Assembly (NCBI GenBank): GCA_902806065.1
Contig: CADCVE010000097.1
Span: forward strand, 1 to 61,870
Source: an uncultured Rubrobacteraceae bacterium
GTDB lineage: Bacteria; Actinomycetota; Rubrobacteria; Rubrobacterales; Rubrobacteraceae
DNA: 61,870 nucleotides
Direction: 5' to 3'
The notes under the pieces are model-generated. The model had not been told where the DNA came from, ran no database searches, and was given only the letters and a program-made list of their open reading frames with translations. Below, one piece after another: positions 5,386-12,838 of this stretch. Both the position numbers and the translations under genes were made by a program. Each line of letters begins with the position of its first letter. The stretch's first letter is position 1.

Positions 5386-5418
5386 TTATCCACAGGGTGT
5401 GGAAAAAACTGTGGATAA
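5386..5418. promoter_or_regulatory. Inverted pair of perfect DnaA boxes
   Basis: TTATCCACA at 5386-5394 and its reverse complement TGTGGATAA at 5410-5418 face each other across 15 bp. They lie in the 369-bp rpmH-ORF spacer (5134-5502) upstream of the GHKL-ATPase gene and dnaA, and could be a second origin sub-region or a DnaA-responsive operator. Apart from these and the rpmH promoter I see nothing else in the spacer. Confidence 0.85.
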
Positions 5419-5502
5419 TCATGGTAATACTCTGCAAAAGTGCGATTTTTTGACGGTGGCTATAGCGTCTTGGAGAAGGGTACGCAATAATCTGCGAAGG
5501 GG

Positions 5503-6291
5503 ATGATGTACGCGAACCGCACACAGGACCACGATCTCGATCTTCGCATCAAGGTCGCGGTGTACTCCGATGGTGGAGAGCCGGAGGTAAGTGAAATATC
5601 GGCGGCCTCGACAGGCGCGGCAGGCGGGAAGTTCTTTAAGGTTGTTGTGGAGAAGGTCAGGGAGTGTAAGGGCTGTGTACCGGAAAAGGCATTACAGGAG
5701 TTGATCGAGAACCTTATACACGCCGAGTTCAAAGGCGTTGTGATCTCCGTTCTCGAAGGAGGCAACGTGGTGAGGATCTCGGACAAAGGTCCCGGGATAC
5801 AAGACAAGAATCGGGCCTTCGAATTTGGTTTCTCGGGTGCTACACCGAACGCCGCGCAAGAGATCAGAGGCGTTGGGGCAGGACTGGGAATTGCCAGGGC
5901 GGCCGCCGAGGAGGCAGGGGGCACGGTCACGATTGAGGACAACATCGGGGGCGGGACTGTGGTGACACTCTCGGTGGGGGAGACCGCTCAAGCACCTAGT
6001 ACCGGAAATCCCCCGGAACAGCCGTCGCCGCGAAGGAAGTATCCTGATGCCGTGCCGAAGATGAACATCTCAGAGAGGCAACAAAAGGTGTTGGTCACGG
6101 TTTTGGAGTCCGGGGAGCTGGGGCCTTCCACGGTCGCGGAGCGGTTGGGTATCAGTGTAAGTACAGCCTACAGAGACCTCTCCGTGCTCGAGGAGCATGG
6201 TCTAGTCGCCAGCGTGGACTCGGGGAAGCGTGTAATCACGCTGCTGGGTCAGGACCTGGTAGAGGCAATTGTTTCCACGTGGGTGAAGTAG
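5503..6291 (+). CDS. GHKL-type ATPase domain fused to winged HTH; possible replication/dnaA regulator
   Basis: Unnamed protein, 262 aa. Residues about 45-155 form a HATPase_c (GHKL) fold: N-box ELIENLIHA (Asn70), G1 box DKGPGI (94-99), G2 box GVGAGLGI (123-130), and GGGTVVTLS. A Pro-rich linker follows, then a DeoR/ArsR-like winged helix at about 187-250 (STVAERLGISVSTAYRDLSVLEEHGLV). No histidine phosphotransfer helix, receiver or membrane segment is present, so it is not a classical sensor kinase. It ends 3 nt before the dnaA GTG, so the two are co-transcribed, and two DnaA boxes precede it. ATP-controlled DNA binding at the origin is inference. Start is ATG 5503 or 5506; an in-frame stop at 5488 rules out longer forms, and AAGGGG sits very close to the start. 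Confidence 0.88.
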   Translation: MMYANRTQDHDLDLRIKVAVYSDGGEPEVSEISAASTGAAGGKFFKVVVEKVRECKGCVPEKALQELIENLIHAEFKGVVISVLEGGNVVRISDKGPGIQDKNRAFEFGFSGATPNAAQEIRGVGAGLGIARAAAEEAGGTVTIEDNIGGGTVVTLSVGETAQAPSTGNPPEQPSPRRKYPDAVPKMNISERQQKVLVTVLESGELGPSTVAERLGISVSTAYRDLSVLEEHGLVASVDSGKRVITLLGQDLVEAIVSTWVK

Positions 6292-7671: not shown

Positions 7672-7814
7672 TCGAAAACCTCCCCCCGGAAAAGAAGCCC
7701 ATAAACCTCTCCACAACTCGTAACCCTAACCCCCAAACTTCGCAAAAATGTCCTTCTATCCCTCCCCTACAGGGATGGCAGTTTGTAACACCTTCTAAAC
7801 ATACCTGTCTAAAG

Positions 7815-8213
7815 TTATCCACAGTTCATCCACAATCAACGCCACTACCTGTGGATAACTTTTCCTCCCTTAACCGCGATAATATCCACTTATCCACAAT
7901 ATTTGTGGATAAAAAGCCATTCCTGTGGATAAAAGTATAAGCACCAACGTATATGAGACATGAATATTACTACATTGGAATACACGTTGTGGATAAAGCT
8001 GTGGATAAAAGGGGTAAAATCTGTGGATAAAGCTGTGGATAAAAATGTGGATAAGTTTGAGTTGTGGATAACTCGGGACTTATCCACAATCCATCCACAG
8101 GATTTTGGTGCTTATCCACATTTTTATCCACAGCCTCGTGGGTGCTTTTTTAGCTTAGGTACGGTTATTCTCTGACTTATCCACACTATCCACAGGCCTT
8201 ATTATTATTATTG
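7815..8213. other. oriC: Chromosomal origin oriC (DnaA-box array plus unwinding element)
   Basis: The dnaA-dnaN spacer (7672-8265) holds 15 perfect DnaA 9-mers. Forward TTATCCACA starts at 7815, 7890, 8080, 8112, 8124 and 8177; reverse TGTGGATAA starts at 7850, 7904, 7924, 7988, 8000, 8022, 8034, 8046 and 8063. Near-matches lie at 7826, 8091 and 8186. From 7904 to 8063 all eight point one way; from 8080 on all point the other way. Several are exactly 12 bp apart. AT-rich DNA lies at 7932-7987 and 8199-8250. Bases 7672-7814 hold no boxes and only a weak hairpin (7758-7776). Confidence 0.96.
8199..8213 (-). promoter_or_regulatory. DnaA-trio-like unwinding element
   Basis: Top strand TTA-TTA-TTA-TTA-TTG means the complement reads 3'-AAT-AAT-AAT-AAT-AAC-5' moving away from two abutting DnaA boxes (8177-8185, 8186-8194) across a GGCC spacer (8195-8198). 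This box, GC spacer, trio layout matches the basal unwinding element described for Bacillus subtilis. Confidence 0.7.
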
Positions 8214-8265
8214 TTCTAAGAACTTAATGGTTTAAACAATAAAAGTAAAGGAAGGAGGAGTAGCT

Positions 8266-9626: not shown

Positions 9627-10717
9627 GTGCGTACCTCCGCGCCCTGCGGCTCGTGAACTTCCGCAACTACGTCGACGCGACGGTGCTCCTTGCGCCGGGC
9701 CTGAACGTAGTCGTTGGTGCCAACGCTCAGGGCAAGACAAACCTCCTCGAAGCAATCTCCTTCGCGGCCACCGGCTCGACACCCCGCACCCCGAACGATC
9801 CGGAGATCATCCTTTGGGGCGCGGACTTCACCCGCGCGGAGATGCGCGTAAGCATGAACGGCGACGAGGAGCGAAAAATAGCAGTAGGCTACGCTCCAGG
9901 TCAGAAGAAACGCCTCACCATCGACGGTGTACCCGCATCCTCCCTGGCAGCCTACGCCGCCGGCGGAGCGGGGGTGAGGGTCGTCACCTTCTTCCCAGAT
10001 GACCTCCGGGTCGTGAAGGGTGCCCCCTCCGACCGCCGGGAGTTCCTGGACAGCCTGCTTGCCTCCCTCAAGCCAACCTACGCCCGCGCCGCCGCCGAGT
10101 ATGCCCGCGCCGTTCAACAACGCAACCAACTCTTGCGCCGCATTCGCGACGGGCTCTCCTCCGAAAAGACACTCTCGACCTGGGACCGCAAAGTCGTGGA
10201 CCTGGGCACGGAGGTCCTACGAGGCCGCACCGCCGCTATAGGACCCCTGGGTTCGCTCTTCGAAGACGCTGTGAGCGCTCTATATGGCCCCGAGAAGGCC
10301 GCGTTGGGCTACGGCTATAGCGCGCCCTTAGATGGGTATGCGGAGGCGCTCAGAGAGGCGCGTGGGGTCGATGTAGAGCGCGGGACCACTTCGGTCGGGC
10401 CGCATCGGGACGATTTCGCGGTGCTCTTCGGGGGAGTGAGCATGACGACGTATGGGTCTCAGGGTCAGCAGCGGCTGGCGACGCTGGCGCTAAAGTTCGC
10501 GGCGAGGGAGTACCTGAGAGGGGAGACGGGGCAGGACCCGATCCTTCTCTTCGACGACGTGATGAGCGAGCTGGACGAGGAGCGGCGGGGGTACCTGACC
10601 GAATACTTCCTGGCTAGCACCCAGGCCGTCATCTCCACGACGAACCTGGAATACTTCGATCCCGAAGTTATCGAAAGAACGCCTATCGTACGCATATCTG
10701 GTGGTTCAGTACTCTAA
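9623..10717 (+). CDS. recF: DNA replication and repair protein RecF
   Basis: SMC-like ATPase that helps load RecA at gaps and restart forks. Seen: MSAYLRALRLVNFRNY start typical of RecF, Walker A GANAQGKTNLLEAIS, the ABC signature region YGSQGQQRLATLALK and Walker B PILLFDDVMSELDEERR. 364 aa. The ATG at 9623 overlaps the S4 gene stop; the frame is open further upstream but the family start is clear. Follows the dnaN-S4-recF-gyrB-gyrA order. Confidence 0.97.
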   Translation: MSAYLRALRLVNFRNYVDATVLLAPGLNVVVGANAQGKTNLLEAISFAATGSTPRTPNDPEIILWGADFTRAEMRVSMNGDEERKIAVGYAPGQKKRLTIDGVPASSLAAYAAGGAGVRVVTFFPDDLRVVKGAPSDRREFLDSLLASLKPTYARAAAEYARAVQQRNQLLRRIRDGLSSEKTLSTWDRKVVDLGTEVLRGRTAAIGPLGSLFEDAVSALYGPEKAALGYGYSAPLDGYAEALREARGVDVERGTTSVGPHRDDFAVLFGGVSMTTYGSQGQQRLATLALKFAAREYLRGETGQDPILLFDDVMSELDEERRGYLTEYFLASTQAVISTTNLEYFDPEVIERTPIVRISGGSVL

Positions 10718-10795
10718 AGCACCAAGGGTGGCGCCACGGGATGGCATTACAAGCGTAAAACCCCTTACGTAAGCCCCAAACGAGCGAAAGACTTC

Positions 10796-10823
10796 TTGGA
10801 AAGTGTACAAGGTGTGTTACAAT
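10796..10823 (+). promoter_or_regulatory. gyrB: Promoter for gyrB
   Basis: TTGGAA (10796-10801), 16-bp spacer, TACAAT (10818-10823), in the 183-bp recF-gyrB spacer. It leaves a 5' leader of about 70 nt before the TTG start. Confidence 0.6.
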
Positions 10824-10897
10824 CTATGGGTGAAACACTGTGGTACAGAAACTGGTTCTGGCGATGCCCCCGGAGCCCTCGACGGGGAGGATAATAG

Positions 10898-12838
<1,941 letters not shown>

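Follow-up and report, generated by a model that had tools for sequence, protein, structure and literature searches.

How bacteria control DnaA is well understood for a handful of model species only. The known regulators of DnaA, SeqA, Hda, YabA, SirA, Soj, DiaA and CtrA, act at dnaA, at DnaA or at oriC, and we know of none that has a GHKL domain. Here we analysed a gene whose product, a GHKL ATPase joined to a winged helix-turn-helix (wHTH), is proposed to act at this same level; it lies within a stretch of 61,870 nucleotides from an uncultured Rubrobacteraceae bacterium (hereafter the window). The literature searched, with most subscription journals lying outside it, yielded no description of a dnaA-tied GHKL-wHTH protein, and an earlier note on this DNA had likewise known of no system with such a layout. 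The review "The DnaA Tale" makes no mention of GHKL, histidine kinase or winged helix (PMC5835720). As far as searched, the parts of the protein are familiar and the dnaA-tied combination is undescribed.

Comparison with solved structures identified a single fold, among the matches listed, that aligned over approximately the whole length of the window protein: the uncharacterised DIP2311 of Corynebacterium diphtheriae (PDB 3LMM). Both its GHKL and its winged-helix halves were aligned (280-295 columns, TMq 0.36-0.46), with 14% identity and with 3LMM about twice as long. 3LMM presumably carries AlbA_2 and HATPase_c_4 domains, neither of which was among the best 25 of the 28 Pfam families matching the window protein at E<=1, and we know of no link between 3LMM and dnaA.

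Three further groups share single features with the window protein. The CA domains of histidine kinases (HK853, CpxA, KinB, YycG/WalK) have in common with it the ATP-binding fold and the G1 and G2 boxes, but unlike these kinases it has no HisKA or His helix and no receiver, bears a Glu at N-4, four positions ahead of the N-box Asn, and is fused to a wHTH. SpoIIAB/RsbW and the mitochondrial PDK/BCKDK, whose N box takes the form E-xxx-N without a phospho-His, gave weak profile matches to the family; the window protein differs from them in having no partner genes, a C-terminal wHTH and another genomic neighbourhood. The GHL ATPases (GyrB/MutL/Hsp90) share the catalytic Glu at N-4, whereas their S5-fold transducer is absent here, a disordered linker and the wHTH following the GHKL domain instead.

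Domain analysis placed HATPase_c (PF02518) on residues 62-158 of the window protein (E=5.1e-14) and winged-helix models on residues 186-243, with TrmB at 7e-9, HTH_20 and HTH_IclR weaker, and HTH_DeoR at 1.3e-5 (Table 1). The winged helix proposed in the earlier note is thus present, while its description as DeoR-like is loose, TrmB/IclR/ArsR-type models scoring better. Membership of the DeoR family was rejected, the HTH being C-terminal here, whereas DeoR proteins combine an N-terminal HTH with a C-terminal sugar-phosphate sensor domain; Pfam detected no such sensor in this protein. Nor did Pfam reveal a His-phosphotransfer, receiver or membrane domain, in line with the earlier reading from the letters, and no NCBIfam equivalog attained its cut-off. 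AlphaFold2 modelling (54 homologues) predicted two confident domains (mean pLDDT 88, pTM 0.59), with pLDDT near or above 90 for most of residues 11-158 and 190-255, separated by a low-confidence, disordered linker at about 161-180; such values are in keeping with a protein of two flexibly joined domains. The linker is much longer in several other families, with open reading frames of 340-520 aa. Long Pro/Gln/Tyr-rich linkers were seen in several orthologues of families f12, f20 and f37 (loci L085-L091).

Table 1. Coordinates of the features of the dnaA locus in the window
Feature	Position	Strand	Evidence or remark
Distal CTGCAAA	5274-5280	+	Upstream of the triad, 158 bp upstream of the proximal copy
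DnaA-box triad, TTATCCACA / TGTGGAAAA / TGTGGATAA	5386-5418		Box every 12 bp: 5386-5394 (+), 5398-5406 (-, TTTTCCACA), 5410-5418 (-)
Proximal CTGCAAA (AATACT-CTGCAAA-N6-TTT)	5432-5438	+	13 nt past the triad; candidate operator
Probable core promoter and start region	5459-5502	+	G.T.TAGCG (5459-5467), ~17 nt, TTAnATT-like, GGGG-ATG; rigid spacing
GHKL-wHTH gene (P0001, 262 aa)	5503-6291	+	ORF, Pfam; opens the dnaA cluster
GHKL ATP-binding domain, residues 14-158	5542-5976	+	Pfam HATPase_c 62-158, AlphaFold2, column counts (147 homologues)
Linker, residues 159-185, variable, partly disordered	5977-6057	+	Low pLDDT at 161-180, alignment, ORF lengths
Winged helix-turn-helix and C-terminal helix, residues 186-262	6058-6288	+	Pfam TrmB/IclR/HTH_20, AlphaFold2
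dnaA	6295-7671	+	GTG start 3 nt past the GHKL-wHTH stop codon
dnaA-dnaN spacer, presumed oriC	7672-8265		16 DnaA boxes of the searched pattern

The nucleotide-binding motifs of the GHKL domain are all present (N box, N70; G1, D94-x-G96-x-G98; G2, G123-x-G125-x-G127), and the intact boxes claimed earlier proved to be a family-wide trait. Among 147 homologues, no variation was seen at E66, N70, H73, D94, G96, G98, G109, A113, G123, G125, G127, G140 or G151, each of which is present in 146-147 sequences and lacking at most from one truncated sequence, and E66, the residue at N-4, was found in 146/146 sequences covering its column. A Glu at this position is the catalytic base in GyrB/MutL/Hsp90, PDK/BCKDK and SpoIIAB; histidine kinases do not typically have it. 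The GHKL-wHTH profile matches MutL (positions 53-115), BCKDK/PDK and SpoIIAB chains, which fits with this reading of the Glu. Because the catalytic positions, including the N-4 Glu, are invariant, catalysis (ATP turnover or phosphotransfer) or an ATP switch is likely, rather than a dead domain. In the winged helix, R224, L226 and L229 are nearly invariant across the 147 homologues, a pattern that fits a predicted working DNA-binding domain.

The same invariance makes a fragment of a sensor kinase unlikely. In fold, the GHKL half most resembles the CA domains of histidine kinases, as a decayed kinase remnant would, and an ordinary transcription factor could also have come to lie near dnaA by chance; against this stand the invariant active site, the missing HisKA and an unbroken linkage to dnaA in about 140 genomes. 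HisKA, DHp and HPt models were absent from the matches listed for the window protein and from the 25 models that recur most often in 54 homologues. We therefore consider such an origin highly improbable and rejected the sensor-kinase remnant, in agreement with the earlier note.

The N box could also point to a Ser/Thr protein kinase or an anti-sigma-like switch of the SpoIIAB/RsbW/PDK type, which would phosphorylate or sequester a partner, possibly DnaA or a sigma factor, with the wHTH serving only to localise it. With its Glu at N-4, the ExxxNxxHA N box is SpoIIAB-like, positions 57-156 of the profile match 1th8/1l0o (E ~2e-4), and matches to PDK/BCKDK chains were obtained as well. However, HATPase_c fits 54/54 members, compared with 4/54 for HATPase_c_2 (E<=0.01), the window protein not being among those four, and the conserved neighbours include neither an antagonist (STAS) nor a sigma gene. 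Taken together, these points leave a switch of this type unlikely.

A profile search across 396 Actinomycetota genomes identified a strong homologue of the gene (E<=1e-18) in 153 of them; each of these has a single match, apart from two genomes listed with two. Since many Actinomycetota manage without it, the gene is outside the universal initiation machinery. Within the family of the window (f1), 27 of 36 genomes carry a strong homologue (E<=1e-78); eight of the nine others had no dnaA match at all and one had a dnaA truncated at a contig edge. These absences look like assembly gaps, because intact dnaA is likewise missing from those contigs. One genome of this family (G017, 99% complete) gave no dnaA match at E<=1e-40, probably reflecting a missing contig.

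One peptide pattern, run against 84,980 species genomes, gave 429 relatives. The titles of the best 80 included Coriobacteriia, Candidatus Aquicultor, Hakubella, Humimicrobium, Oleimmundimicrobium and Slackia, together with Armatimonadota/Armatimonadetes, ANGP1 (ANGP1/CSP1-3), UBP13 and Bacillota, a list of phyla that is provisional, as MAG titles are not always reliable. The plasmids searched held no homologue of the gene, and a phage, defence or plasmid origin was rejected, with only generic domain matches and no plasmid match.

Analysis of gene order revealed strict pairing with dnaA. At every locus with sufficient flank (about 140 once duplicates were removed), the gene immediately precedes dnaA and shares its strand; this holds for 79/79 named loci and for all loci from whole genomes. 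In the circular records cut at dnaA that were checked, dnaA starts at the first bases of the contig that ends with the gene. The dnaA association on which the earlier note had staked its proposal is thus conserved in related genomes without exception, and we define the family by it: GHKL and wHTH in one protein whose gene stands immediately before dnaA in the same orientation, as in the window. The 3-nt distance to the dnaA GTG, correctly given before, recurs in most relatives within family f1, and 3-nt gaps or overlaps are frequent in the wider set. In 18 outgroup loci without the gene, rpmH mostly stands shortly before dnaA with nothing recognisable between them, although in a few of these rpmH was not seen within the fetched stretch.

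The conserved neighbours of the gene are yidC, rnpA, rpmH, dnaA and dnaN. In the window, parB-like, parA, rsmG-like, jag-like, yidC, rnpA and rpmH genes occupy the minus strand, followed by the GHKL-wHTH gene, dnaA, the DnaA-box spacer, dnaN, recF, gyrB and gyrA, the names of the far genes having been assigned by reading translations. Two separate open frames make up DnaA in the MAG loci L034, L061 (G039), L068, L160 and L161, perhaps through assembly errors.

Pairwise divergence of the GHKL-wHTH proteins ran parallel to that of DnaA (Mantel r=0.75, permutation maximum 0.12; 117 loci), a parallel that is expected from vertical descent and by itself is no proof of interaction. The gene is inherited together with dnaA, and the stability of the origin region could in part preserve both adjacency and vertical descent. 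Given that the gene pair recurs in about 140 sampled genomes from many lineages, it is very probable that the protein has a part in governing the timing or manner of replication initiation.

One conceivable role at this step is that the protein stands in for the missing helicase operator DciA. DciA, whose usual place is between recF and gyrB (10717-10901 in the window), was undetected in every sampled f1 genome, as such a substitution would predict. Most other gene-carrying clades nevertheless have DciA, and the genomes of the family encode a DnaC/DnaI-like AAA+ protein; on both counts we rejected the substitution, which seems barely credible. The DnaC/DnaI-like (IstB) model was matched in 9/9 f1 genomes checked, by a protein of ~290-320 aa. 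By hand count, approximately 49 of 59 DciA-negative genomes carry the GHKL-wHTH gene; three clades confound this proportion, as does the weak detection of DciA in Coriobacteriia.

Upstream of the gene, the two DnaA boxes of the earlier note turned out to be three, spaced 12 bp apart (Table 1). A strict triad was found in 94/157 homologous spacers versus 6/18 dnaA loci without the gene, and since some gene-less loci carry it too, we rejected the triad as a hallmark of the gene. In an alignment of 23 family loci, the spacer is rigid and nearly gap-free from the triad to the start codon, in the order triad, 13 nt, CTGCAAA-N6-TTT, G.T.TAGCG, ~17 nt, TTAnATT and GGGGATG, and the proximal CTGCAAA keeps a constant offset in nearly every f1 spacer. 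The putative promoter gave no sigma-70 match on the plus strand, and a search for structured RNA gave no Rfam match.

The two CTGCAAA copies are separated by 127-128, 138-139, 148 or 157-160 bp in 19 family loci, distances that differ by multiples of the helical turn (R=0.91 at 10.5 bp). As these loci are related and not independent, the four length classes provide the fairer test (R=0.98, p ~0.003), the classes having been set after seeing the data. Such phasing by whole turns suggests that both sites face one side of the DNA, and hence looping.

A longer version of the CTGCAAA motif was followed through 37 genomes, where exact family matches lay mostly at the spacer upstream of dnaA and the remaining off-origin matches were about as few as in backward-read controls. 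There was no sign of a genome-wide CTGCAAA regulon, an off-origin match in the window genome falling within coding sequence. CTGCAAA occurs in 10/127 non-family loci, although the wHTH is conserved in those clades; because the motif is not general where the wHTH is conserved, a protein other than GHKL-wHTH may be its binder. A "CTG"-like core past the triad in other clades was discounted, as similar cores follow some gene-less triads.

DnaA-box arrays in both the upstream spacer and the dnaA-dnaN region bear on the main rival to an ATP-dependent regulator of the dnaA operon, namely direct action on DnaA or oriC. Here the GHKL domain would serve as a clamp or switch binding DnaA or the origin complex, with the wHTH as its anchor at oriC, so that initiation is promoted or delayed; this can be likened to SirA, YabA or Hda, but from a different fold. 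The strict pairing with dnaA across clades with differing promoter elements and the divergence parallel to DnaA also speak for it. The conserved wHTH and the tight operon placement, however, equally suit plain autoregulation, and we regard direct action as possible but somewhat unlikely.

We favour an ATP-binding, DNA-binding regulator dedicated to replication initiation, co-expressed and co-inherited with dnaA, and assign this reading a probability of about 0.5. The gene and dnaA would be expressed as one operon from a promoter carrying DnaA boxes, and the winged helix would most likely bind the rpmH-to-dnaA control region, plausibly, in family f1, at the two CTGCAAA elements flanking the triad. 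The protein is probably a dimer, in which the nucleotide state of the GHKL domain, with turnover needing E66, would set dimer shape and through it DNA binding. In this model, ATP/ADP or some other signal would govern the synthesis of DnaA and perhaps also its assembly at the neighbouring origin; we infer both the direction of control and the input signal.

The architecture, the invariant active site, the pairing with dnaA, the co-inheritance and the phased DNA elements are the observed part of this proposal. It is conservation that supports a putative link to dnaA or oriC for a protein that would bind DNA in an ATP-dependent way, and the ATP-gated control of dnaA or the origin suggested in the earlier note is plausible. 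More tentatively, a GHKL ATPase with a winged helix in the dnaA operon of several phyla, sensing nucleotide, forming a loop or complex with the DnaA triad and setting DnaA synthesis or origin firing, could represent an undescribed control class.

If true, a gene fixed beside dnaA in many classes, Coriobacteriia among them, would supply the regulator that is missing from the picture in much of the Actinomycetota and in some uncultured phyla. Through the ATP-binding domain, moreover, the old question of the relation between energy state and initiation would become directly testable with point mutants of E66 and N70.
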